Source: Apostichopus japonicus (taxonomy: Eukaryota > Echinodermata > Holothuroidea > Aspidochirotida > Stichopodidae). Taken from it: 64,000 nucleotides of DNA. Of this stretch, positions 1 to 47,838 are shown piece by piece. Position 1 is the first letter of the stretch. Each line of letters opens with the position of its first letter. Made by a program: the position numbers and the translations under genes. Below the pieces are notes generated by a model. The model did no database searches and had not been told where the DNA came from. It saw nothing but the letters and a program-made list of their open reading frames with translations. The stretch covers positions 38,342,501-38,406,500 of the forward strand of contig NC_092568.1 of NCBI RefSeq assembly GCF_037975245.1. The letters run 5' to 3'.

Positions 1-109
1 ATATCACGTTGAATATACCGGTTCTCGTCCGATCACCGAAGTCAAGCAGCGTCGAGCCTAGTCAGTACTTGGATGGGTGACCGCCTGGGAATACTAGGTG
101 CCGTAGACT
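1..109 (+). rRNA. 5S rRNA gene, copy 1 (5' end cut by window)
   Basis: Positions 11-119 of the gene are present; the first ten bases lie outside the window. The following spacer has 10 C and microsatellite type S. Confidence 0.95.
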
Positions 110-20028: not shown

Positions 20029-20147
20029 GTCTACGACCATATCACGTTGAATATACCGGTTCTCGTCCGATCACCGAAGTCAAGCAGCGTCGAGCCTAGT
20101 CAGTACTTGGATGGGTGACCGCCTGGGAATACTAGGTGCCGTAGACT
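20029..20147 (+). rRNA. 5S rRNA gene, copy 25 (short unit)
   Basis: The gene is intact with 10 C, but the unit is only 573 bp because two pieces of its spacer are missing. Confidence 0.97.
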
Positions 20148-20601
20148 TTTTCATTTTTCCTCACCCACAACTCCGCACCCTTTCTTTCTTTATTTCTTTT
20201 TCACTATTCTTTTATCCTGTCATTGTTATGAAAAGTCCCTCCCCCCCCCCTCACCACCACCGTTGAAGACATTGACTTGCCATATACCACTATTGTTGTG
20301 ACCTGATCATTGCAATCACAAGTTTTTCTCCAGCCCCCTTTAATTCGAGACAAGTGTATCATTAGGGCTATATCATTCCGCATGATATGTTCTCAAACAA
20401 AATCTCTCGTTTTTTGTGGCTTGGATGTCATATCCGGGCGTATATGCTACCATATAGCTTCTCAAGTCATATAAAAACATGCACATTATTTAGTTTAATG
20501 GGATAAGTAACCATATAGGTGGTCTAGAGTTGAACATCCAACTTTGCAAAATAAGTCTCGGGGCGGGCGGGTATAAAAAGCTTAAATTTCACCATTCTAA
20601 T
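20148..20601 (+). other. Internally deleted 5S spacer
   Basis: Two blocks are missing compared with its neighbours: about 73 bp between CCGCATG and ATATGTTC (junction near 20384) and about 189 bp between GGATGTC and ATATCCGGG (junction near 20429). The ambiguous bases at the junctions are TG and TC, as expected for microhomology-mediated loss. The microsatellite, the hairpin and the GTGC tract are gone; the TATA box is kept. Confidence 0.9.
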
Positions 20602-20720
20602 GTCTACGACCATATCACGTTGAATATACCGGTTCTCGTCCGATCACCGAAGTCAAGCAGCGTCGAGCCTAGTCAGTACTTGGATGGGTGACCGCCTGGG
20701 AATACTAGGTGCCGTAGACT
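20602..20720 (+). rRNA. 5S rRNA gene, copy 26
   Basis: Intact; unit 835 bp, 10 C, type L1. The shortened spacer upstream still supplies the normal TATA box at -30. Confidence 0.97.
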
Positions 20721-24772: not shown

Positions 24773-24810
24773 GTCTACGACCATATCACGTTGAATATAC
24801 CGGTTCTCGT
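24773..24810 (+). pseudogene. 5S rRNA gene copy 31, 5' fragment split by LINE
   Basis: Positions 1-38 of the 5S gene are kept, including the start and the TATA box upstream, but the internal control region has been moved more than 5 kb downstream. The last 12 bases (24799-24810) are the left target-site duplication. With boxes A and C gone, this fragment should not direct normal Pol III initiation. Confidence 0.95.
24799..24810 (+). repeat. Left target-site duplication of the LINE
   Basis: ACCGGTTCTCGT, 5S positions 27-38; it matches 30194-30205 exactly. The first A on the right could belong to the poly(A) tail, making the duplication 11 or 12 bp. Confidence 0.9.
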
Positions 24811-24838
24811 TGAATATACCGGTTCTCGTCGTTCTCGT
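24811..24838 (+). repeat. Extra partial target copies at the LINE 5' junction
   Basis: After 5S position 38 the sequence repeats positions 20-38 (TGAATATACCGGTTCTCGT, 24811-24829) and then gives a shorter echo, CGTTCTCGT (24830-24838). This ladder of target fragments lies between the array and unique LINE sequence. Confidence 0.85.
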
Positions 24839-25028
24839 GTTTGTTCGTACTTTTTACCCCTTTCCTTCCGTTCTTTTTCGGAATCGTGGCCATCGGCTGA
24901 TGTGTTTGTGATCAGCGGACATTTTAGTTGTTCTATTTAGGATTTTTGGTGAATAATTTGTGTTTTTACTGCATTTTTCGTGTCACTCCGCTGCGTCTCC
25001 GACGCACGCGGTCTTCACCTCAACGAGC
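24839..25028 (+). other. LINE 5' untranslated region
   Basis: About 190 bp of unique sequence between the target ladder and the first ATG of ORF1. An open frame reaches back to a GTG at 24960, but no ATG occurs in frame before 25029. No clear internal promoter motif was found. The normal 5S TATA box remains about 60 bp upstream, so the element may depend on 5S or array transcription for expression. Confidence 0.6.
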
Positions 25029-26123
25029 ATGGATTCCGCGAAATCCACTACCGCTGTTCAAAGCAGCACACAGAAACGCTGTGCGGTTATGAAAAACAAC
25101 AGTGTACGTATCACCGATAATAAATTTGAAGCCCGTGATGTCCTTCGCGCGCTATCTGATGACATTGGGAAAGAAAACATTCTCGGTTGTGTGAATTCCA
25201 ACGGGCAATGGATCGTAACACTTAAGGAAACAACAGATGTAGAGCTTCTACAGGCGACTGGCGTACTGATTGATGGTGTAGGATACGAGGTACGAGGGGT
25301 AACAAGGAACCTACTCACTGTGAGCTTGTTTGGGGTACCAGTTTTCATAGATGACGATGAACTGTCAGATAAGCTGAGAGAATTTGGGTGCATACTCAAG
25401 AGCGCATGGACCCACAAAACCTATGAGGACTTTCCCAATGTAGAGAACGGGATAAGATATATTAGGTTAGAACTCCCGTCCAACGCAAAGAGCCTTCCGT
25501 ACTCCATTTTCATATCTGGAGTCCATCTTCGATTGAAGCATAACGGACAATCCCGGGTATGCAACATTTGCCTTAGCTCGGACCATATCATGAGAGAGTG
25601 TAAGCAATATACTTGCAAAGAATGCGGTATGCAGGGTCACAGCGAAAGTAAATGCCCGCGGGTGAAATGTTACAGGTGCCAGCAATTCGGGCACAAAAGT
25701 TTCGACTGCCCTACTACTCCCCCTACACCCAAAGAAGACAACAATACCTCAGAAATGGAAACAAATGATTCGGCCTGCGCAGAACAAGATAATACAACAA
25801 TCCAAGATATCCCGGACAACCCCCAGCCACGTGAAACGATCGAAACAGACAAACAGACCCCAGCAGAAAACGAAAACAAACCAAGCCGAAAGATTAATAG
25901 CTCTCAACCGAAACCGAGAAATAATGAAACCACAGACCCAGCGACACAGAACACAGAGAAAGAAGACAACCCAACCTCGCAGAAACGGAACCTCTCTAGT
26001 GATGACGATTGGACTGTCCAAACGAGGAAAATGAAAAACAACAAAAAGAAAGCCGACCCTACACCCAACCTAGCCAAAGCACGTAATTTTCAACCTCGCC
26101 AGCCATCACTAGACCAGCATTAA
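25029..26123 (+). CDS. LINE ORF1 protein, zinc-knuckle RNA-binding
   Basis: A 364-aa protein from the first in-frame ATG (MDSAKSTTAV). It should bind the element RNA to form the ribonucleoprotein used in retrotransposition. Residues about 30-170 form a conserved-looking N-terminal domain. Three CX2CX4HX4C knuckles follow in a row near residues 177-230: CNICLSSDHIMREC, CKECGMQGHSESKC and CYRCQQFGHKSFDC. The last 130 residues are polar and low-complexity, rich in N, T, P, E and K, probably disordered and basic near the end. Zinc knuckles in ORF1 are typical of Tx1-type elements, whereas vertebrate L1 ORF1 lacks them. The reading frame is open throughout. The stop is followed two bases later by the ORF2 start. 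Confidence 0.88.
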   Translation: MDSAKSTTAVQSSTQKRCAVMKNNSVRITDNKFEARDVLRALSDDIGKENILGCVNSNGQWIVTLKETTDVELLQATGVLIDGVGYEVRGVTRNLLTVSLFGVPVFIDDDELSDKLREFGCILKSAWTHKTYEDFPNVENGIRYIRLELPSNAKSLPYSIFISGVHLRLKHNGQSRVCNICLSSDHIMRECKQYTCKECGMQGHSESKCPRVKCYRCQQFGHKSFDCPTTPPTPKEDNNTSEMETNDSACAEQDNTTIQDIPDNPQPRETIETDKQTPAENENKPSRKINSSQPKPRNNETTDPATQNTEKEDNPTSQKRNLSSDDDWTVQTRKMKNNKKKADPTPNLAKARNFQPRQPSLDQH

Positions 26124-26125
26124 CG

Positions 26126-29100
26126 ATGTATTTTTCACTCACCGTTATAATGTTTTTACTCGCCTGCCTAAATTGCAACGGACTGATCAATCAAGATAAA
26201 AGAAGAGGGTTATTCTCTCACGTTTCTAAAAACAAATTTGACCTTGTTTTATTACAAGAAACCTTTTGGGACCAGTCAATTCATGACCAGGCCAAACTTG
26301 AATGGGATGGTGATATTTTATCTTCCTTCTATTCTCCCTCGAGACGAAGGGGAACGAGTTGTTTAATTAGGAAGGGTAGCGATATCGATGTACACCACTT
26401 CGAACCGGATATAAACGGTCGCTTTTTAAAATTAAGTATTACTGTGGATGGACAGTCTTTTACAGTTTTTAACATCTATGCTCCAAACACGCCGAGCGAA
26501 CGAAAACAATTCCTAGAAGATATTTCAAGAAAACTCCGCAACGTGCCTGAACCAATTATTCTAGCGGGAGACTTCAATACCGTTCTTAATACTTACGTGG
26601 ATAAATACCCACCAACACCTAACCCGGACACTTCTCGAAAATCTCTGAAACTTATTATGACGGAATACGAGCTTGTCGATATTTGGAGAGAGCGCCACCC
26701 TTCTTTAATCCAATTTACAAGAACAGCCAGCAACCACAAAACCGCTTCCAGGATTGATAGATTTCTTTTAAACAAACAGCTAGTTCGCTACGTCAAATCA
26801 TGCTCCATCTCTCGCTATCCCGATTCTGATCACGACATGGTTGAACTTAAACTTGACTTTACCCTTTTTCCTAGGGGCCCCGGTGTATGGATCTTTAATA
26901 ACTCCATACTCGAGGACACATCCTTCTGTTCGGAAATAAGAGATTTCATCGAGCGAGAAAAACAGAAGACTTGTTACGACAATAATATCCTCCAGTGGTA
27001 TGACGTTTTGAAAGATTCACTAAAAAGGACTGCAATCAAATTTACCAAGGTCAAAAGCAGACTCTCGCGTACACATCAAAGAAAACTAAGGAAACAAATC
27101 AACCACGAAAGGGCGAAAGCGCAAAAATATCAAGACTACGACACTACAAGGCTACGGAATTTAGAATTTCAGCTAGACGAGACGACCCGCGCAGATATCA
27201 GAGGAGCCGCGCTTAGATCGAGAATCAAGTGGTTCGAAGAAGGAGAACGTTCGTCAAAATTTTTCCTCAATTTAGAAAAATCTCGACAAAGCAAAAAAGT
27301 AATGCGCCAGATTCTCACCGACGAGGGCGCGATCATTAACGATCAAGACGATATTATCCACGAACAGGCCAGATTTTACAAAACGCTGTACACCGCAGAA
27401 CCGTCAGTGAGTATTCAGAGGGAGGTACTACTTAGTCAGCTTTCTAAAACGTTGTCCGAACCTGATTCTCAGTCATGTGAGGGGGACATTTCGGCTGCAG
27501 AACTCCAAAAATCACTTTTTGATATGGAGTCGAGTAAAAGCCCTGGTTTAGACGGACTCACTGTTGAGTTTTATAAGGAATTTTGGGATGTATTGGGGGA
27601 GGTTTTTCTCAAACTGACGAAAGAAATTTACAACACAAATGAAATGTGTAAATCTATGAAAACAGGCCTAATTACCTTGATACCCAAGAAAGGGGATTTG
27701 AGAAAACTTAAGAATTGGAGACCGATTAGTCTTTTGAACACAGACTACAAAATAATCACAAAGGCCCTGGCCAATAGAATCTCTAGGGTTATCAATTGCC
27801 TTGTCTCTAGTGATCAGACCTGTTGTGTTCCCGGCAGAGATATTGCCGACAATGTTCTGGCTATGAGAAATATTATTAATTATGTTAACGAAAACAAGCT
27901 GGAGGGCTATGTTCTTAAAATTGATCAATTAAAAGCCTTCGATCGAGTAAACCATGAATATCTTATTAATGTTTTACAAAGGATGGGTTTCGGTACTAAT
28001 TTAATTAACTGGGTTAAAATCCTCTACAACGATATTCAAGGCTGTATTAAACACAATGGTTATATTTCAGATGCTTTTCATATTCAGAGAGGGGTTCGCC
28101 AGGGTTGTCCAATTTCTGCTATTTTATATGTATTATCTGCTGAACCATTTCATGACGCTATTTACAAAAGTAAGAGTATAGTTGGTATTAAGTTTATGCA
28201 TCATGAAGCTAAAATGTTTCAACATGCAGATGATACCACTTTCTTTCTCTCTGATACTTCTAGTGTTAAGTCCGTACAAAATGTTATTAACCTGTATGAA
28301 GGCGCCTCTGGCTCTAAGTGTAATGTAGAGAAAACCGAGTTACTAGTGCTCGGAAAAGGCAAAGTACGAAAAGACGAGTTCAATTTTCCGATTAGGAACG
28401 ATTTTATAGAAGTGCTTGGTGTTTGTATCGGCAATGATAAGGATGCTCTTGAAAGAGAAAACTGGAAAGCCAAGACTGCCTCTTGTTGCAATGTTCTCAA
28501 GAGGTGGAAAGGGCGGAACCTCTCCTTTAAAGGCAGAGCTCTTGTTGTAAATTCTCTAGTTGTCTCAAGACTGACATATCTTGCTACTATTATTCCGGTC
28601 CCTAAATGGGTAGGAGACTCTTTGAAAGAAAGTGTTATCGAATTTATGTGGGGAGGTAAGAAACCTGGCATATCCTACAATGTTCTTCTTCAACCTGTAG
28701 ACAAAGGTGGCCTTAACCTTTGTGACATTTTTATAAAGAGAGACGCTTTACGTATGAAGTACATCTGTAAACTACTTAGCAACAGTATCAATCCGATGTT
28801 AAAAGATTTAATGCTCTATTTTCTGAACCATTATGAATATATGAAACTAGGTTTACACGTATTTCGTATTTTACCTCATAGCAATTCTATGAGAAAACTT
28901 TTACCGTATTATTATGAGTTGTTGAGTGCCTGGAAAAAGTTAACGGATAAAAAGTTATGCCCTCCAGTGAACAGGGAAGAAATTCTTATGCAACCGCTGT
29001 TCCATAATCCATTTATTGTAAATGAAACTGACGAAACCCTCTTTAATAGAGATTTCATTGAAGGTGGTATACTTTTTGTAGGCGATCTTATGTATGAAAT

Positions 29101-29998
29101 GATCCCAAGACGGCTTCCCGCAGAGGGTATCCATGAAGCCATTACTATGGCCAACCCACATTGTAAACTTGATGTTGATGACGTATTTGATTACGTCACA
29201 TCTATTTTGAACGCTTTTCCAAAAGATTGGCTCGAACAAATCTATTCGGGCGATAAAATTGTCAGTCAAAATGACAATGAGTCACTTTCACTCACCCTCT
29301 CTTGTGGTGACACCACGCTAGATGCGTCCACCGTTAGTGTCAGGAATGCAACTGATCTCCTAAGGGAGGCCGTCTCAACAATTCCAAAAGGCGAAATCCA
29401 CTGGAAACACGTTTTTAACGATGTCTCTTTTGAACATAGGTGGACCAATGTCTACAAAGGTCTAAAAGCTTTTCACGATAGTGACCTCGATTTCCGTCTT
29501 CTTCATAATATTTTATTCTGTAACGATAAGTTGTATCTTTTTAAGCTAGTTGACTCTCCTTTATGTACCTTATGTAAGAACCATAATGAAACTGTCTTGC
29601 ATCTTTTTGTCGATTGCAAAACCGTAAATCTTCTCTGGGGAGATATTATCAAGAAGCTTCAGAAAATCTGTAAAATCAACAACAATGATAAATGGAGGCA
29701 AATAACTCTCTTAGGTATGGAACTTAACCATAGGAGGCATGAGACAATTTCGATTGATCTTATTCTAAACACTTTCAAAAAAGTTGTTTGGACCACTCGT
29801 GTTAGCCTCCTGAACGGGGAAAAGCACATTAATATTCAAAACTTCTTTCATAATTCACTACGAAAGAAAATCGATTTCTTATTCCACTATTTTGTAAAGA
29901 AAAAAGAAATTTCTACATTTTGGGAGTTGTTTACTCAAGGTGACGTCATTCTCAATCCTCTTGAAGATGGCTCCTACGAGTACAAGTTTGACAGTTAA
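26126..29998 (+). CDS. LINE ORF2 protein, APE endonuclease and reverse transcriptase
   Basis: A 1290-aa protein that nicks the target and copies the element RNA onto it. The endonuclease fills about residues 10-245, with the APE signatures LNCNGL, LLQETFW (E45), FNIYAPN, AGDFNT (D149), RIDRFL (D211) and SDHDMVEL (H236). The reverse transcriptase lies at about 465-760: KSPGLDGLT, LIPKKGD, NWRPISLLNTDYKI, KIDQLKAFDRV (D600), RGVRQGCPIS and QHADDTTFF (D702, D703). The usual YADD/FADD box reads HADD here. A zinc motif CX2CX8HX4C (C1147, C1150, H1159, C1164) is near the C-terminus. The length is normal for Tx1/L1 ORF2. All catalytic residues I can place are present and there is no stop, so it could be active. 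The frame differs from ORF1. A second Met at residue 9 is an alternative start. Confidence 0.95.
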   Translation: MYFSLTVIMFLLACLNCNGLINQDKRRGLFSHVSKNKFDLVLLQETFWDQSIHDQAKLEWDGDILSSFYSPSRRRGTSCLIRKGSDIDVHHFEPDINGRFLKLSITVDGQSFTVFNIYAPNTPSERKQFLEDISRKLRNVPEPIILAGDFNTVLNTYVDKYPPTPNPDTSRKSLKLIMTEYELVDIWRERHPSLIQFTRTASNHKTASRIDRFLLNKQLVRYVKSCSISRYPDSDHDMVELKLDFTLFPRGPGVWIFNNSILEDTSFCSEIRDFIEREKQKTCYDNNILQWYDVLKDSLKRTAIKFTKVKSRLSRTHQRKLRKQINHERAKAQKYQDYDTTRLRNLEFQLDETTRADIRGAALRSRIKWFEEGERSSKFFLNLEKSRQSKKVMRQILTDEGAIINDQDDIIHEQARFYKTLYTAEPSVSIQREVLLSQLSKTLSEPDSQSCEGDISAAELQKSLFDMESSKSPGLDGLTVEFYKEFWDVLGEVFLKLTKEIYNTNEMCKSMKTGLITLIPKKGDLRKLKNWRPISLLNTDYKIITKALANRISRVINCLVSSDQTCCVPGRDIADNVLAMRNIINYVNENKLEGYVLKIDQLKAFDRVNHEYLINVLQRMGFGTNLINWVKILYNDIQGCIKHNGYISDAFHIQRGVRQGCPISAILYVLSAEPFHDAIYKSKSIVGIKFMHHEAKMFQHADDTTFFLSDTSSVKSVQNVINLYEGASGSKCNVEKTELLVLGKGKVRKDEFNFPIRNDFIEVLGVCIGNDKDALERENWKAKTASCCNVLKRWKGRNLSFKGRALVVNSLVVSRLTYLATIIPVPKWVGDSLKESVIEFMWGGKKPGISYNVLLQPVDKGGLNLCDIFIKRDALRMKYICKLLSNSINPMLKDLMLYFLNHYEYMKLGLHVFRILPHSNSMRKLLPYYYELLSAWKKLTDKKLCPPVNREEILMQPLFHNPFIVNETDETLFNRDFIEGGILFVGDLMYEMIPRRLPAEGIHEAITMANPHCKLDVDDVFDYVTSILNAFPKDWLEQIYSGDKIVSQNDNESLSLTLSCGDTTLDASTVSVRNATDLLREAVSTIPKGEIHWKHVFNDVSFEHRWTNVYKGLKAFHDSDLDFRLLHNILFCNDKLYLFKLVDSPLCTLCKNHNETVLHLFVDCKTVNLLWGDIIKKLQKICKINNNDKWRQITLLGMELNHRRHETISIDLILNTFKKVVWTTRVSLLNGEKHINIQNFFHNSLRKKIDFLFHYFVKKKEISTFWELFTQGDVILNPLEDGSYEYKFDS

Positions 29999-30167
29999 TT
30001 TTCTCTTGCCTTCCCCAATCTAGGATTACTCTTTTATTGTTGTGCATGATTGTATCGATAGTGTTGTATTATTGTTATAGTTTTACATATATTCTCTTTC
30101 TTTATTTCTTGTAACCATGTTAATATCTGTACATTCAATCGGAGAACCAGTGGGTTTTTCCGTCAAT
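29999..30167 (+). other. LINE 3' untranslated region
   Basis: AT-rich sequence of about 170 bp after ORF2, with no further ORF. It ends in AATAAA (30165-30170), which merges into the poly(A) tail. Confidence 0.75.
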
Positions 30168-30193
30168 AAAAAAAAAAAAAAAAAAAAAAAAAA
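30168..30193 (+). repeat. LINE poly(A) tail
   Basis: An uninterrupted run of about 26 A joined directly to 5S position 27. A long pure tail suggests a young insertion. Confidence 0.93.
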
Positions 30194-30205
30194 ACCGGTT
30201 CTCGT
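30194..30205 (+). repeat. Right target-site duplication of the LINE
   Basis: ACCGGTTCTCGT directly after the poly(A) tail, continuing into the rest of the 5S gene. Confidence 0.9.
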
Positions 30206-30286
30206 CCGATCACCGAAGTCAAGCAGCGTCGAGCCTAGTCAGTACTTGGATGGGTGACCGCCTGGGAATACTAGGTGCCGTAGACT
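30194..30286 (+). pseudogene. 5S rRNA gene copy 31, 3' fragment split by LINE
   Basis: Positions 27-119 of the 5S gene follow directly on the LINE poly(A) tail. Boxes A and C and the terminator are intact, but the first 26 bases and the TATA box are missing. Any transcript started here would have LINE 3' sequence in place of the 5S 5' end. The next unit spacer has 12 C and type S. Confidence 0.95.
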
Positions 30287-37796: not shown

Positions 37797-38509
37797 TTTT
37801 CATTTTTCCTCACCCACAACTCCGCACCCTTTCTTTCTTTATTTCTTTTTCACTATTCTTTTATCCTGTCATTGTTATGAAAAGTCCCTCCCCCCCCCCC
37901 TCACCACCACCGTTGAAGACATTGACTTGCCATATACCACTATTGTTGTGACCTGATCATTGCAATCACAAGTTTTTCTCCAGCCCCCTTTAATTCGAGA
38001 CAAGTGTATCATTAGGGCTATATCATTCCGCATGCATGCACGCACGCACGAGTGTTCTCCCTCAGGAAAAGTGCCGAAAAGAAACGGGAGAACATCTTTC
38101 TTGATATGTTCTCAAACAAAATCTCTCGTTTTTTGTGGCTTGGATGTCGGAGTACACAAAAGGAAGTAAATGTGATGCACAAATTAGGTCGATTGAGGCA
38201 ATTTTAGACCACTTTAGGCTTCCCATGAGCAGCGTACGAACACTATGTTAAGAGGTTTGTTCACAAGTCGGACGAACGTGGCTAGCTTCAGACTCTCAGT
38301 GTGAGTGTGCGTGCGTGCGTCAGTCATTGGGGCAATCATATCCGGGCGTATATGCTACCATATAGCTTCTCAAGTCATATAAAAACATGCACATTATTTA
38401 GTTTAATGGGATAAGTAACCATATAGGTGGTCTAGAGTTGAACATCCAACTTTGCAAAATAAGTCTCGGGGCGGGCGGGTATAAAAAGCTTAAATTTCAC
38501 CATTCTAAT

Positions 38510-39344: not shown

Positions 39345-39444
39345 GTCTACGACCATATCACGTTGAATATACCGGTTCTCGTCCGATCACCGAAGTCAAG
39401 CAGCGTCGAGCCTAGTCAGTACTTGGATGGGTGACCGCCTGGGA
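39345..39444 (+). pseudogene. 5S rRNA gene copy 42, 5' part split by DNA transposon
   Basis: Positions 1-100 are kept, so the TATA box, box A and box C are all in place, but the last 19 bases and the T-run terminator are displaced to 47839. The gene could in principle still recruit TFIIIA/TFIIIC and transcribe into the transposon until a T run (the first TTTT is near 39590), giving a chimeric RNA. Confidence 0.95.
39442..39444 (+). repeat. Left 3-bp target-site duplication of the DNA transposon
   Basis: GGA, 5S positions 98-100; repeated at 47836-47838. It is the longest duplication compatible with the two junctions. Confidence 0.75.
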
Positions 39445-39540
39445 TAGACTATGGGGCATGTGGCCAAAACAGCTTTGTAAATTAATTCTTGCAGTCATCT
39501 CCTGGGGACTACATGAAATGTGGCTTAAAATGTAGGTATT
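39445..39540 (+). repeat. Left terminal inverted repeat
   Basis: It pairs with 47750-47835. The outermost TAGAC..TGGGGC and the inner GGGACTACATGAAA match exactly or nearly so; the stretch between them is poorly conserved and differs in length by a few bases. Confidence 0.8.
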
Positions 39541-40030
39541 GTGTGTCCTTTCAATATCCCAACAGTTCCCACTCCCAGAAATGGGGCACTTTTGAGTAAA
39601 TCCTGCCTAAAAACAAAACACTAAAAAACAAGAATTCCTTTAAAAAGGACTGCGTGTCATGCAAGTGAAATATGGTATTACACTGTTTGTTCAGGGATTT
39701 GACATCCTGCAATGACCCATATTGTTTTTTATAAGTAATGATATTGGAATTGGCATCTAATAAGGACGTGCATTCCATGAAGTGTTGAAACGAAACACCG
39801 TATAGTTGATGAAATTTCCCCAAAATAACAGATTTTTGCCATTTTATCACTTTATTATGACAAAAATGCATGTTTTTCTTTATAATTTGCAAGAATATTT
39901 TGCTTGTATCTCAGTTTATGCATGGCCGACCTTATTGTTTCTTTTGATATGACGGATCACATTTGACCAAATAGCAATTAGCATGATTAAAGAACCTTAG
40001 AATGATTCTTCATCTTCAAGGTGGCATACT
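39541..40030. other. Transposon left subterminal region, no gene seen
   Basis: AT-rich sequence with no recognisable domain; a 113-codon open frame here looks accidental. TTTATT at 39851-39856 reads AATAAA on the minus strand and could be the polyadenylation signal of the transposase gene, about 700 bp beyond its stop codon. Confidence 0.5.
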
Positions 40031-40510
40031 CCTATTAGAGTCTATATCAATCCGCTCGATTGTTCTCCTTCAGGAAAAGTGCCAAAAAGCAGCGGGAGAA
40101 CATCTTTTGTGACCTGTTATCAATCATAGTCTAGTTTTTGTGGCTTGCATGTTGAAGAGCATGAATGGAAGTACATGTGGTGAGAAAATTGGGTCAATTG
40201 AGGCAATTTTAGACCCCTTTAGGCCTCCCGGGAGCAGCGTAGGAAATTTGTTTACCACTGAGTGAAGAGGTTTGTTTACAAGTGACGAAAACTTCTGGCT
40301 CGGATAGCAAAAAATCTACATGGTCATGGTACAAAAAATTGATGGTGCCATGAAAGTCTAACTTGTCAGCTATCCGGTGATGGGTAGCGTTTAGCTAGTG
40401 AAAACTTCTATCTAGACTTAGAGACCACATTACTTTTAAGATTTAGTGTGTAAGTCAATGAGGCTTTTTACCTAAAAGTTCTCTTTATGCTACCTCGTAT
40501 GCTACCTCGT
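40031..40510 (+). repeat. Diverged copy of the 5S array spacer inside the transposon
   Basis: This stretch aligns with the host spacer in the same orientation. Shared blocks in order are CTATATCA.TCCGC, TGTTCTCC.TCAGGAAAAGTG, CGGGAGAACATCTTT, TTTTTGTGGCTTG, ATTGAGGCAATTTTAGACC, CTTTAGGC.TCCC, GAGCAGCGTA, AAGAGGTTTGTT.ACAAGT and, more weakly, AGTCA.TG.GGC and TATGCTACC. It corresponds to about 1162-1512 of the unit at 822. The CATG/CACG microsatellite of the present spacer is missing, and small indels are scattered through it. It is far more diverged than any spacer in the array. On the minus strand it lies just past the transposase stop codon, so it may form part of that gene's 3' UTR. Confidence 0.82.
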
Positions 40511-40572
40511 ATGCTACCTAATAGTATGCTACCTCGTATGCTCGTATGCTTTTTACCTCGTATGCTACCTAA
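40487..40572 (+). repeat. TATGCTACCTCG minisatellite
   Basis: Several imperfect tandem copies of TATGCTACCTCG, bounded on both sides by similar CCTAAAAGTTCTCTT segments (near 40470 and 40568). The repeat grows out of the TATGCTACC present once in the normal spacer, and its right edge reaches the last codons of the transposase gene. Confidence 0.75.
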
Positions 40573-43500
40573 AAGTTCTCTTCATCATCATGGAATTCAG
40601 CATCGTCATTGTCTTGCTCGTCATCATGCTCGTCATCATCTTCCTCATCACCTTCAGGCTCAGTGGCTGGCTCTTCATCTGGTATGGGCATGTTGGCACA
40701 GTTCTTACATCCACATAGTTCGGTACAGCGCAAACCCAAAGCTGCACAGCATCCTTCATCTGTACCTTGGCACTTTGACTTGTTGCAGGTGCATCGAGTT
40801 AATTCCATGATGCTTTGTTGAGCAGGCTGCAGGTCCATCCAATCTATCGCAAGGTTACCCTCTACTAATTTCCAACCATGGCCAACTGGTGATGGTATGT
40901 CAGGATGGCTTTCAAAACCACGTTTCCAAATAGCTGCCTGGTAATTTGCACGTTGTGAATGCTTTAGTAGTGCATCTCTGTTGGGGGGCATGATATCCTC
41001 TTGCCTGGTAGCCATGGAAAATAAGGCGTACCTGGCATCATTCACACTGCTGTGCTCTTGCATATTGTAAAGCTTGCACACAAAGTCCTCCAATGTTGAG
41101 ATGACGTCATCTGTAAGCGTGAATGCTTCACCCAGGGCTTGAAAAGCCTGTCTATACCTTTCATTGTCTAGAATTAGCTTCAATGGTCTTGTCTTCCCTT
41201 TTCCGTAGAAGGAACTTGTTGAATCACAGCCAGTGAAACAGTGCAGGCCTATCATAACTTTTGTGGTTTCCTCTCCCAGGTCAAGTTGGATGGCCTGTAG
41301 GCTGATGGTGCGGTTCTTTTCTTCTTTCCCTGTGTTGAAATATAGCTTTGAGCTCTCAAGTTTTGGTGACATAGCAATACCAATGATGAACACATCCGTG
41401 TCAGGACTCTTGATGACAATATCTTTACTTCCCATGTCGCTGGCGTACTTAGCATGGAGCAACATCCTGGTGTCGGCTTCCTCGTGTGTACAATGGAGTT
41501 CTGGAACTTCTTGAATATTTGTTGTCCCATTGCTTGCTGTAATTAGATGACACTGCTCTGCGTGTGCAATGTACACAGATATTCCCTTCAAATCCTCCTC
41601 CCCATAAGTACTCCAAGAGTCAAACAGGAAATTGACAAGTTGCTCCTTGTTGAATCCATTAGCCAGGTATTTCTTCCACTGTTTGGGCACGGGTTGGTCT
41701 GGCTTGGTGATCTTGATCCTTTGCGATCCACTTGCTGCACGCCGCTTCCTCTCTGCACCTTTGATGCTCATAGCTGGATATGTGTCTGTCACAAAGTGTA
41801 TGATGTTTGATCCAGTGCTTCTTGCCAAGTAAACCAGGTCTCTCAGTATTTTCTTTGCCAATTGTCCTATGGTGTCAGGCATCGTCTTTGAGTTCAACTG
41901 TTGAAGCTTGGCCATTCCGTCGACAATCCAAACACATTCCTTTGGTAACTCGACAGTCGGAGATGCTTCTGGTGACTTCTCTAGGTGGTGCAACAGACTG
42001 GCTTTGTTCGTCTTCACCAAACATCCATTAAGTTTGGCCAGGGCTGGAGGATATAGACTCAATGAGAAAGTCAACATGTTCCGCTGATCTACCTTACGTA
42101 CTCTGCCAATAATAATTAGCCTCGCCAGCAACTCTCTATCACTTTTCAAAGCCACCTCTTTCCCATTCATGTTCACAGTTGCTTTGCCTACATCTGCAAA
42201 TGTCTTCAACTTCATCTTGGACAGAGTTTTGTTGAGGTATATGTCTCCTTGCAGACGGGTCTTGGAGAAATTGATGAAGGCTTCGTCACCCTTTGTATAT
42301 GCATTCATAAGATCAGAGCATACATCAGCTGAAGCAATGACCCCTGATGATAGGTGCACAAGTTCTGCAGTATCTGCTTCTGGATCACTATCAAAAGGAT
42401 TGGTCATACTCATTATGGTGCTCATGATGTTGTTGATGTCATTCTGATCTCTCGTCATACGACTCTTTGTTAAATCTGCACGTCTTGAAACTTTTTCTCC
42501 CTTGCCAGCCATTTCCTCACACTGTCTCGTTATCAGTGCTCTTTCATGGTGGCCTCTGATCCATCGATTGGTGGCACCTTGGTTGTTTGAGAAGCCTTTA
42601 ACACCCCCTCTCGTTTTCGAATCTCTATTGGCAGTTTGCTCAATTGTCATGTCGCAAGCTACTCCTGCAAAACCGTGTGTGTCCTGACGCTGAACTGCAA
42701 AGTGGCCCTTGACTAGTTCATCATGGATAAATGGATTAGTGATTGGGAGTTTGTTCATTTCAAGCCAGTATACCGGAAGGTAGCGTGAGTAGTTTGTCCT
42801 ATCATAGGCAAACATCCATGGTAGCAAAACTCTGACTGTAGCAAGATGCAGTTTCCAGTCTCCTTCCCTGGTAGCTCTAATGAAGAGGAGAATATTGCCA
42901 ATCATTTCTAGGTAAGAGCACCAGAAAGCGAAAGTAGCGTTGTTCTTTCCTTCTTTAATGAAGTCTCCATACCTTGCCATCATAGCCTTGTAAGCACTTC
43001 CTTCCAGCTGGGTGTCAAACTCTCTTGGATAAGATGCCTGTAGGGATGACACTACTTTCTTGAACTGTTGTCTTTTCTGTTCCTCCAGAGTACTCAAGAA
43101 ACTTTGCCATCGAAGGCGGTGCAGTGCTTCAGCCATAAGCTTATGACAGCGAACACTTCGATTGTAGTTGTGGCCATTCATCACACCAGTCACTGACCCT
43201 GTTGCTACTACACCTGCCTCAATCAGGACATCTTGAAACCCTGCATCCTGGAACCTCTTCCCAATGCATGCTAATGCTGTCATTGTGGTATGGAAAGCTC
43301 CAAGACGAATAACTATTCTCTCCTGGAAAATTGGAGTCTGCCATCTGATTGTCTGAGCTTTACAATAAATCGCTTGGTCTACTACTACCACAATTGATGG
43401 AAGTTCCAACTGATCGGCTATTTCCAGGCTTCTGTGAAGTACAGTGTTGACAGTATTTAAATCCGTCGGGCTAGCATCTACAACTGGCAAGTATGCAATG

Positions 43501-45169
43501 GTTGCTTTAGGTGGAATGTTGGATGAAAGCAGTTGGTTGAATCCAGTCCAAGAGGGAAGAAGGCGGGCCTCAGAAAATTTTGAGACATAAAATGCATCTT
43601 CTTTTTCTCTGTATGGATGCAGGACAACATTATAATGCTCAACTTCCAGCTGTACACTGTCATCAAATGCCTGAGGGGATGACTTCTTCAAACCACCAAA
43701 TCTCACCATCTCTGAAGCAGGTGCTGGCAGGGATCGCTTCCTTGACTTTCTGATATGTTGACGCAATTGAGACCCTGAAGATGTAGAATCTAACTTCACA
43801 TGTTGGACAGCTATTCCGTTGGTGTTGTGGGTAGTGCCTTTACCTGATAGGGTGCATTCTCCAAAATCGTTGTTGTCCCACACAAGGGTGGTGTAGATGG
43901 ACTTGTTGAGACTGGATGGAAGAACATTGCCTCTATCAATTTCCTGCTGCCCTAATGCTGTATCGTGCTCCAAGACATTAGTGTGTGACACAGAATGTCC
44001 AAAACCATTCAGTAAACCAATGAGCTGGGCTGATCCACTAAGATGACGAATCGCCATTGACAGTGATGCATGCTTGGGCATCATCTTCCTTCCCTTTGTT
44101 GCCAGGTAGATGATGTCCTGCCCAATGGCAAGGATGCGACGATCTTCTGCATCTTGAATCTTTACTTTCTGCTCATCTGTTGGCTCATCGGACACACCAA
44201 CAATCCATGCTATAAAATTGTAGAGCTTGGTGGGGACTATCTTGCGTGCTGCATCAAGGGTTAAATCGTCAGATGTTGGAGGCCATGGAAGATTGGTTTT
44301 TTTCATGGCTTGCATGATTTCTTCTTTTAAATCCAATGCAGTAGAGTAGCAATCCCTTAGTGACGACATTTGAGGCTTGGATTGTCCACTGTTTGGTATG
44401 CCCTTTGGTCGCTTTCTGGGTGGTTCTTGTTCCTCCTCAGCATCTGTGTTGTCAGTATCTGTGGTGGTGTCAGTGTCATCTGCTTCAGAACCAACAGCTT
44501 CAGGCACAAGATCTTCGGCCGATAGTGTCTCAACATAAACCATCTCACTGGAACACCTCTTCTTGGGCTGAAGAAAGCACAGCTGTGGAAACCTTCGTTT
44601 GAGACGCTGCTTCAGGCTGTAAGTTCTGTAGTTGGAGGCATCTTTCATTTCAACATCTTTCACAGCTTTGCCAAAATACCGCCTTAGTGATGTCATTCTG
44701 TAAATCTGTTTCTCTCGAAGAATCTTGTGTTCGATGTAGTACTTGCAAAAAGCATCAAATGCTGTGGCATAGAGCTGTTCTTTTGGCTCAACATACTTCC
44801 TGGTTTGGTACCCTGTGTAGCTCCTGTAGCAACTTCTATGATAACGCAATTCGATTGCCACACAGTCACGATCACGAATTTGGAGAAGTATGCGGTCGTC
44901 CTTCTTGTCTTTAGCAGCTGCGGCTACCTTGCCTCCATCAGGCTGTTCACAAAGCATCAACTGTTCTTTTCTTTTTCTCCTCTGAGCGTCTGTATATGAT
45001 TTTTCATAGCGGCAACAGAAGATGCAAATCTTTGGCAGGATGTGGGAAGGGACAGATGGCTCCTTCGTTACACCCGCAAGAGCTGAGCTAGATCGTAACA
45101 CCCTCGGGGCTTGTTGTGGATTTGTTGCTTCATCACCAGTATCAATACTTGAAGTTGAAGGCTCCAATT
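40569..45169 (-). CDS. Academ-like transposase, exon 2 (central core, XPG-like nuclease, CXC domain)
   Basis: This exon supplies residues 114-1646 of the predicted 1646-aa protein. A second Cys/His module lies near 150-230 (CIFCC .. YHRSCYRSYT), followed by an acidic, low-complexity linker near 330-370. The conserved centre (about 430-990) contains VWDNNDFGECTLSGKGTTH, VVVVDQAIYCKA, LGAFHTTM, NYNRSVRCHK and CDMTIEQTANRDSKTRGG; D545 or D548, D711 and E794 or E957 are my candidates for a DDE-type triad, unproven. Residues about 1190-1450 match the FEN1/XPG PIN fold: WIVDGMAKL (D1197), FVTDTYPAMSIKGAERKRR (D1242), HEEADTRML (about 1343-1346), SPDTDVFII (D1370, D1372) and GLHCFTGCDST (D1429). A CXC domain with nine cysteines spans about 1573-1604, and an acidic D/E tail ends the protein. 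The frame is open for 4.6 kb. Confidence 0.85.
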
Positions 45170-45282
45170 CTGTAATGGCACAAAAGAAAGAAAGAAAAAT
45201 ATATGTGTGAATTTTCATTTTGTATTCTGTGTATAGGGAGATGATGGATATTTCAATGTAGCAATGAAAATAATAAAAATAT

Positions 45283-46345
45283 GTACACTAAAACACCTGA
45301 AAATCGGGCATAGCTCTGCCATCAACAGCTATTTAGAAAATGCCATATAAAATTAAAGATATATTTAAATATACAATTTTCAAGCCATTATAAAATTTAA
45401 GTTTGTATAATTTACACCAAGACACCTGAAAAATTGGGCATAGATCCAACATGCAATTTGTTAGGGCCTACAACTTTAAGTAGAGTTTGCACTTTATAAA
45501 ATTTAAGTTTGTATAATTTACACCAAAACACATAAAAAAATGTGCATACATATAGCTCCACGTGTGACAGGTTTTTCAACAAAATCTTGTCTGAAACTAC
45601 CATGGTGACATCTTTTTAGACAAAAACCATCAGAAAACTAAATATGAATATATACATTTTATCAATGTAGCTATATCTTTAACCTTTACACCAAAAAAAT
45701 TGGGCATTGCTCTGCCGTGCGTTGACTCTTTAAATGCAACATGATTTTTATGACCCAATAAAAAGACCTCAAAAATTGGGTATACATGTAGATCTGCTTT
45801 GCTTTAGCTTTTTTGAAGATGCAATATTGTTGTAACCCGAATAAAAACATGGGCCTAGGTCAGCCGTGTCGGCTTTTTAGACAAAATAAAGCAGTCAGAA
45901 AACTAAGAAGAATATATTATTTCAATGTAGCAATAAATAATATCTGTACACAAAAAACAAAACAAATGGGCATACATGTAGCTCCGCCGTGCGTTGGCTT
46001 TTTAGATGCAACATATTTAATTTTAAATTATTTTTATGACCCAATATAAAAAGATCTGAAAAATTGGGCATAGGTCTGCCGTGCGACAGCTTTTTAGACA
46101 CAAACCGTCAGAAAACCAAGTCTAAGTAGAATTATATTATAATAATTTCAATGTAGCACTAAATATATCAATTAATATTTACAACAAAACATCTGAAAAA
46201 TTGGGCATAGCTCTGACATGCATGATCATGCATTGGCTTTATATAATTTATGCAACATGATTTTTATGACCGACCCAATATAAGGATCTAACCTAACAAT
46301 ATTTTACACCAAAACACATAAAGAAGTGGGATATATAGGTCTGCT
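45283..46345. repeat. Degenerate tandem repeats in the intron
   Basis: A phrase like ACACCAAAACACCTGAAAAA then TTGGGCATAGCTCTGCC then GGCTTTTTAGA recurs about nine times at irregular spacing (roughly 75-190 bp), for example near 45290, 45415, 45525, 45690, 45950, 46050 and 46190. Copies differ by substitutions and indels, which suggests an old, decaying satellite-like array. No coding potential is evident. Confidence 0.7.
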
Positions 46346-46418
46346 AATTTATATTGGGTCATTATGACAGTATTTTTTTTTTAATTTAATGACATTAGCA
46401 TTGCCATAGGCTAGCATG

Positions 46419-46950
46419 GGGTACCGTTATTTTCCGCACACATTACTTTCCGCTGAAACAAAACGGTGTTTTCCGCTGACAAATTTGTCAGCGGAAAACA
46501 ACTTTTTTTTCAGCGGAAAGTACCATTTTTTTGGGAGGAACAGAATGACTTACTGAAATGATTAGGCACATGGAAGGATTTGGGAGGATGGAGAAGAAAG
46601 GATTTGACTGTAACAGGGTAAAATGTGAGACTAAAATGTGAGACTAGATTATTATTAGGATAGCTAAGGTTGTCATAATTCTTAAGAATCCCTAATTACA
46701 AACACCCCAAGCCTCCTGTAAATTAAAAGCTGCTTTAACTTTTCTGACATGAACTCAGTCTAACCACCCTTTATCAACGTTCTTTGATACTTTCTCATGT
46801 TATTTTAATCATCCAGCCTGAATTTGGTATCCTAAAATTGAGGAAAAATATAGTGTACAGGTAAGTGAAAAAAAAGTGTTTTCCGCACAAGAATTTTTTC
46901 AGCGGAATGTAATCTGCCGAAAGTAACGTATGCGGAAAACAACTGAACCC
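46419..46950. mobile_element. MITE nested in the transposon intron, 9-bp duplication
   Basis: A 532-bp non-autonomous element flanked by perfect 9-bp copies of GCTAGCATG (46410-46418 and 46951-46959). The ends are inverted repeats of about 38 bp: the left reads GGGTACCGTTATTTTCCGCA and the right, inverted, GGGTTCAGTTGTTTTCCGCA, both followed by a Y-ACRTTACTTTC-type stretch. Inside the left end is a perfect 32-bp palindrome (46468-46499) within a larger hairpin (46444-46522) built from TTTCCGCTGA motifs, and more CAGCGGAA motifs lie inside the right end. A 9-bp duplication is usual for Mutator/MULE elements, so that is my tentative family; there is no ORF of its own. Confidence 0.85.
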
Positions 46951-47093
46951 GCTAGCATGCACCACCAATACAACACAGTTGAACACACCATACAGCCAGT
47001 GCATTTCACCCTAGCCTAAGTGTGAGCAGTGAGTGAGTGAGTGAAATTTCTCTGTAAATGTCCATGTTTATATGACAAAAATAAAGAACCTAC

Positions 47094-47433
47094 CTGATGT
47101 ACGACTTGATTTGGCAGCTAGTAGTTGCTTCTCTTTGCTTATCTTTCCTCTCTTCTGCTTCGATGAGTCGGTAAAATACCGATAACAAGTGTTATGACAT
47201 CCACCAAATTCTGGAATTGGCAAGCTTAATACACACGTACTCCTATGCTCTCGCAAAAAAGCTGTTGCTATATCGGCTTGATTTCCGACCAAATCCTTCC
47301 AAATGTCCACACTTTTCAAGAATGTGGTCCACCTTGCTGTTGTAAAAGGTTTAATATCTTCTAAAACATCAGCGCAGTGAGCAAAACACCTGTTTTTGGA
47401 CGAATTCAGCGACTTTCCCGCATTGCAATCCAT
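47094..47433 (-). CDS. Academ-like transposase, exon 1 (N-terminal Cys/His module)
   Basis: Encodes residues 1-113 and the first base of codon 114. It starts at the first in-frame ATG (MDCNAGKSLN); the frame is open further upstream but without an ATG. The module CFAHC .. FTTARW .. W.DL .. GGCHNTCYRYFTD has the spacing of a zinc-binding domain and echoes the YHRSCYRSYT module at the start of exon 2. The donor site is TCAG/GTAGGT. Splicing in phase 1 to the acceptor TTACAG/AA keeps the frame (..SSRTS-E-LEPSTS..), which supports one joined protein. A start further upstream through an unseen exon cannot be excluded. Confidence 0.75.
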
Positions 47434-47749
47434 GTTTATGTCATGTTTTGCGGCAAGCGAAGCGTCTGTGTGTACCAGCTGAGACGTAAAATAGCCGAAC
47501 CGAAGCACGCTAAAACAGCGACTCTGATTCGTCGATCGGCATAATTTTGATGTACAGGCAAATTATCGGACCAATCGCGTCAATGACAAGTCTTAGCAAC
47601 CAGTGTCAAATGAAACTTGCGATCTGATTGGATATTTTCGTTTCTACAATCGGGTAATTTTAACAGAAATATATTTGCCGTTTTAATTAATTTCTCAATA
47701 ACGCCCCAATTCCCAGCGTGGGAAAACACAAAATTATTTTTTTTAAATA
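47434..47749 (-). promoter_or_regulatory. Probable promoter and 5' UTR of the transposase gene
   Basis: About 300 bp between the right terminal repeat and the start codon. It contains CCAAT at 47569-47573 on the + strand and ATTGG near 47628, but no clear TATA box. The promoter role is inferred only from position. Confidence 0.4.
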
Positions 47750-47835
47750 ATATATCTAATTTTAAGATCATTTTCATGTAGTCCCAAAGTGATGACAACG
47801 AGACAACCGTCCAGAACGGCTCGCCCCACCGTCTA
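47750..47835 (-). repeat. Right terminal inverted repeat
   Basis: Inverted copy of the left end, reading ..TTTCATGTAGTCCC.. and ending GCCCCACCGTCTA against the 5S remnant. Confidence 0.8.
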
Positions 47836-47838
47836 GGA
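47836..47838 (+). repeat. Right 3-bp target-site duplication of the DNA transposon
   Basis: GGA directly after the right end GTCTA; the 5S gene then continues with position 101. Confidence 0.75.

Follow-up and report, generated by a model that had tools for sequence, protein, structure and literature searches.

A DNA transposon in a 5S rRNA gene of Apostichopus japonicus carries a diverged segment resembling the host 5S spacer

Capture of spacer DNA by a transposon of rRNA genes is already known from Pokey, a piggyBac element that inserts in the 28S genes of Daphnia and carries IGS-derived repeats (PMC3849761; also PMC4912750). The 5' noncoding region of Pokey holds 2-5 copies of an IGS piece of ~200 bp together with an ITS2 piece of ~50 bp, and its IGS pieces show concerted evolution with the array. 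The authors of that study take the deep internal position of the acquired pieces as an argument against simple end-sliding or cryptic ends (PMC3849761). Dada-5S of ray-finned fish is a DNA transposon in 5S rRNA genes that produces target duplications of 6 or 7 bp (PMC8869645). Cassandra retrotransposons carry 5S-locus DNA (PMC10853983). Among the matches listed in our literature searches, no title or abstract opening described an Academ element in 5S genes or a 5S spacer inside a DNA transposon.

We analyzed a window of 64,000 nucleotides from the holothurian Apostichopus japonicus (NC_092568.1, positions 38,342,501 to 38,406,500) and compared an element that interrupts one of its 5S genes with these systems. 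The element resembles Pokey in being a DNA transposon in an rRNA gene array with a host spacer-like segment well inside a noncoding region. Pokey is a piggyBac element in the 28S gene and targets TTAA, whereas the present element lies in a 5S gene, apparently belongs to another superfamily and is flanked by GGA, a 3-bp duplication. The pieces in Pokey occur in 2-5 copies 5' of the transposase and evolve in concert, whereas the element described here has one 5S spacer piece, 3' of its gene, at a K2P distance of 0.18 from a near-uniform array. Dada-5S shares the character of a DNA transposon in a 5S rRNA gene but differs in its duplication (6 or 7 bp rather than 3 bp), and the excerpt describing it mentions no spacer capture (PMC8869645). 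Like Cassandra, the present element is mobile DNA with sequence from the 5S locus. Cassandra, however, is a non-autonomous retrotransposon whose LTRs hold 5S-related sequence and an internal promoter, whereas here a DNA transposon carries spacer.

The window consists of tandemly repeated 5S rRNA units of ~835 bp. Rfam returned 61 5S matches, 58 of which reached the full 108.5 bits. Of the three lower-scoring matches, one is truncated at the edge of the window (1-109), and the other two are interrupted genes (30181-30276 and 39345-39466). We compared 55 units, each starting with a full-score 5S gene and extending to the next such gene; the three lower-scoring matches, a shortened unit (20029), the unit entering a retrotransposon (23936) and the last unit (63611) were omitted. 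Variation was found in 11 of 839 columns and consisted of 3 substitutions and 8 length changes, the latter in a C run and a 4-bp repeat. A 54-unit version of the comparison gave the same result. The array is near-uniform, with a single spacer class in the window. The shortened unit (20029-20602) has lost two separate parts of its spacer and retains 47 bp between them.

The transposon spans 39445-47835 (8391 bp, with its gene on the minus strand), as delimited by its junctions with the 5S gene. The 5S gene is broken after nt 100 (5' part, nt 1-100, at 39345-39444, plus strand) and restarts at nt 98 to the right of the element. This arrangement creates a 3-bp duplication, GGA, with the left copy at 39442-39444 (5S nt 98-100) and the right copy at 47836-47838. 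The element begins with TAGAC and ends with GTCTA, and its terminal regions (39466-39700 and 47600-47833) form an inverted match with a score of 73, compared to a shuffle maximum of 57 (0/300). The 8.39-kb insertion is apparently an intact DNA transposon. It is the one insertion of this transposon among the 61 5S matches in the window, and a single 5S insertion is insufficient to prove that the family resides in 5S genes.

The transposon left 5S nt 1-100 whole, a part that would include the internal promoter. The first T4 run within the transposon on the plus strand occurs at 39590. With nt 1-100 intact and this T run nearby, the junction of 5S gene and transposon (39345-39593) could possibly give rise to a short chimeric pol III RNA.

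A non-LTR retrotransposon at 24830-30194 likewise interrupts a 5S gene, the second such insertion noticed. It contains an ORF1 with a zinc-knuckle (25029-26123; zf-CCHC, E 6e-07) and an endonuclease/reverse transcriptase frame (26087-29995; RVT_1, E 6e-34), and it ends in a 27-A tail. At its 5' end (24789-24829), a 19-bp stretch of 5S gene sequence (CGTTGAATATACCGGTTCT) occurs twice in tandem. The retrotransposon resembles elements of the 5S-targeting Mutsu group, which two papers name (PMC3706591, PMC11202950).

The DNA transposon contains a minus-strand frame that runs from 45287 to 40569 through 1572 codons without interruption. A splice acceptor lies near the start of this frame, and an upstream exon has a donor in phase with it. 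Counting the boundaries by hand, we infer a spliced gene with exon 1 at 47094-47433 (minus strand, start codon to splice donor) and exon 2 at 40569-45169 (minus strand), which would encode a putative transposase of ~1646 residues. Short tandem repeats (TATGCTACCTCG and longer units) occupy 40486-40576 at the end of the frame, and an AATAAA poly(A) signal that the transcript may use is present at 39851-39856 on the minus strand. The predicted intron is full of degenerate repeats at 45250-46400 (pairs of 27-205 columns, 67-93% alike). It also holds a palindrome at 46444-46522 (92.5% alike) and, at 46410-46956, a longer inverted pair with abundant TTTTCCGC; together these may represent a small transposon nested in the intron.

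The proteins of Academ transposons have a cysteine-rich part together with an XPG-like nuclease, and AcademX has the nuclease rather than a helicase. The putative transposase is cysteine-rich near its C-terminus, and its C-terminal half may, on our reading of the translation, contain XPG-like motifs. Neither the profiles nor the structure models established a nuclease domain. Pfam gave sub-threshold matches only (DUF6589, NRF, a TCR-type cysteine-rich region and others), with no XPG or helicase families among them. DUF6589 scored 15.2 bits (E 0.0087) and the unrelated NRF domain 17.1 bits (E 0.0072), each below its cut-off of 27. Structure models for two parts of the protein had mean pLDDT values of 34.8 and 38.1, too low for use, and a search of solved structures returned a single match (E 0.98). 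Nine stretches in viral contigs fit a pattern for transposase relatives, and 0 were confirmed. Target duplications are given as 3 or 4 bp for AcademX and 9 or 10 bp for AcademH in a published account (PMC10045372). The 3-bp duplication of the present element is like that of AcademX, a feature that is not unique to AcademX and leaves membership unproven, and it is unlike that of AcademH. The element may be a cut-and-paste transposon, possibly of an Academ-like type.

An earlier note on this DNA had proposed a diverged copy of the 5S spacer inside the transposon, and alignment of the insertion with one array unit supports that proposal. In addition to the flanking spacer, blastn matched 40053-40289 to the spacer on the same strand (187/242 columns, 77%, E 1e-50). 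When 40018-40297 was aligned globally with the array spacer at 37999-38276 (plus strand), 214 of 255 ungapped columns (83.9%) were identical. The last 8 element bases of this alignment are unaligned, so the match ends at ~40289. The block measures 237 bp by blastn and ~260-270 bp with a colinear left extension to 40018-40031. We thus place the spacer-like segment at 40018-40289 on the plus strand, in the orientation of the array spacer and between the transposase gene and the left end of the element.

The similarity of this block to the spacer is far above chance. Its local score is 299, whereas the best of 300 dinucleotide shuffles scored 83 (0/300), and a second scoring gave 1009 against a shuffle maximum of 550 (n=300). 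The core of the block scored 279, compared to 38 for the best of 258 other, overlapping element stretches taken from both strands. An exact 18-mer common to block and spacer occurs 60 times in the window, 59 times in the array and once in the element. The rest of 39466-47833 gave no further match to the array unit at E<=0.01.

The colinear, same-orientation homology was originally put at 350-480 bp. The stretch from ~40018 to 40289 accounts for the part that holds, whereas the claimed continuation (40290-40510, plus strand) is a weak hint at most. To the right of ~40290, the score of the weak similarity is reached by 44/300 shuffles and equalled by 11/248 other element stretches. Two sub-stretches in this region gave p values of 0.028-0.136, and values for the continuation ranged from 0.013 to 0.50 depending on gap costs and the amount of spacer used. 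We rejected homology reaching 40510 as unproven, though some scorings gave p values of 0.013-0.05. To the left of the block, similarity in 39466-40030 is not above chance (52/300 shuffles reach the score), and 39960-40031 is at chance level against the spacer (p 0.86-0.98). On visual inspection, 60 bp immediately to the right of the block are enclosed by CGGATAGC and GCTATCCG (40301-40376), perhaps marking a small insertion that breaks the block; these arms are shorter than the minimum length used in the repeat search.

Two short repeats bracket the block or its claimed extension. One is a 15-nt direct repeat (40007-40021 with 40579-40593, 13/15 alike), and the other is a 12-nt inverted repeat (40019-40030 with 40523-40534, 11/12 alike). 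Their scores were matched by 49/1000 and 53/1000 shuffles, respectively, or ~5% each. They may reflect chance, scars of a repair event or the ends of a small nested element. We also considered and rejected two merged nested insertions; no second terminal repeat or 5S fragment stands above shuffles near the block (5S gene, 234/300 and 200/300 on the two strands; left end, 274/300; right end, 89/300). In viral contigs, one exact 18-mer of the block was matched, extended only 19-21 bp and was taken as chance. Longer patterns from the block had 0 matches in viral or genome contigs, collections where a eukaryote element is not expected.

The carried copy is clearly diverged from the spacer, as the earlier note had claimed. 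The two differ by 19 transitions and 22 transversions (K2P 0.181), there are indels on both sides, and the CATG/CACG repeat present in the spacer is absent from the element block. Set against 3 substitution columns in 55 units, this distance indicates that the carried copy stands outside array homogenisation. The differences are evenly spread (variance p 0.24; longest identical run 19, p 0.80), a pattern that favors passive decay over recent gene conversion between block and array. The carried copy has a CpG observed/expected ratio of 0.49, similar to the 0.50 of the whole element, whereas the spacer block reaches 1.01 and the whole spacer 0.78; the counts are small (8 vs 6 sites), and the microsatellite adds CpGs to the spacer. 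A CpG in the spacer corresponds to TG or CA in the element three times, and the reverse is seen once. A/T drift is absent: at 14 sites a G/C of the spacer corresponds to A/T in the element, and 18 sites show the opposite. No Rfam family matched the shared block at the gathering score, and RNA folds of the two copies were no better than those of shuffles (z 0.96 and -0.49). The even spread of differences and the Rfam result leave the suggestion that the segment serves targeting by homology or hides the element unsupported. From the homogenised array, the unhomogenised block, the long frame and the perfect duplication, we conclude that the block entered the lineage well before the present insertion or came from another spacer type.

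The similarity could have arisen in either direction, through capture of spacer by the transposon or seeding of the spacer from it, and our analysis suggests that capture is the better of the two. We favor, with moderate confidence, a model in which an ancestral transposon in a 5S array captured ~240-270 bp of spacer by gap repair and then carried it passively. The ancestor, possibly Academ-like, would have inserted in a 5S rRNA array of the same or a related lineage and acquired adjacent spacer in the noncoding region between its transposase gene and left terminal repeat. The acquisition probably took place during error-prone gap repair following excision, in which a broken element end would copy the sister array, switch template into the adjoining spacer in the same orientation and return to the element. 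The piece would then have been carried over later transpositions, diverging to its present distance while the array homogenised. The block lies between the transposase stop codon and the poly(A) signal at 39851. If that signal is used, the captured piece is now probably part of the 3' untranslated region of the transposase transcript, antisense to the spacer.

Several observations argue for this model. The homology is far above shuffled expectation and is confined to a single block that overlaps neither the reading frame nor the terminal repeats. The element sits in a 5S gene, and the block is the sole part of it that matches the array unit (E<=0.01). Parsimony, the Pokey precedent and the weak CpG signal also favor capture, and the unclustered mismatches resemble those of passive decay. 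The internal position of the block, as in Pokey, points to template switching during gap repair. The single element copy in the window, the small CpG counts and the lack of A/T drift count against capture.

The strongest rivals concern the donor of the segment and its independence from the array. There is some chance, though we think it a minor one, that the segment came from a further, diverged class of 5S spacer in the same genome or from another host before horizontal transfer. This is a sub-case of capture, and its probability overlaps that of the favored model. In its favor, the long ORF and perfect 3-bp duplication indicate that the element probably moved recently, and one study reports two 5S array patterns in Tribolium freemani (PMC11202950). 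In the window, however, there is no second spacer class, and the 55 units are near-identical. Should such a donor be correct, the divergence would be uninformative about long residence; the long residence originally proposed follows only if the donor was an ancestor of the present array. We regard it as unlikely that the block is an independent dispersed repeat that inserted separately at both places, for instance a short interspersed element or a small non-autonomous transposon. The block is short and has abrupt edges on both sides, and the 12-nt inverted repeat brackets the block and its claimed extension, though at a score that shuffles also reach (53/1000). That repeat has no target duplication evident by eye, and its right arm falls inside a tandem repeat. 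The Rfam and folding results described above do not point to such an element, and the shared orientation and the 5S location would have to be coincidences.

Seeding would require that an internal fragment of the transposon was left in one spacer and spread by concerted evolution. The element inserts in 5S arrays, and array turnover can amplify remnants, but no other part of the element is present in the array unit at E<=0.01 and the weak CpG signal points the opposite way; we judge this origin quite improbable. A role for selection is compatible with capture. The block could be kept as a terminator, a boundary or an antisense guide, in keeping with its location between the stop codon and the poly(A) signal and with the transcription-related roles suggested for Pokey IGS repeats (PMC3849761). 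We consider selection very unlikely given the evenly spread differences, the folds no better than shuffles and the single copy of the element.

Because the carried copy does not follow the self-homogenisation of the array, the piece is a fossil of an older or foreign spacer. Such a fossil could date residence in the array. If this element is a second case of spacer capture, in an apparently different superfamily and another rRNA gene, it would suggest that long life in an array tends to leave host spacer in the element. We tentatively raise the broader and rather doubtful idea of an Academ-like lineage that specialised on 5S genes independently of Dada and Pokey and has long carried a fossil of its home spacer, with the antisense piece in the 3' untranslated region perhaps coupling the element to recombination or silencing of the 5S array. 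If true, this lineage would represent a second origin of spacer capture by a transposon of rRNA genes, and the fossil would date its residence there.
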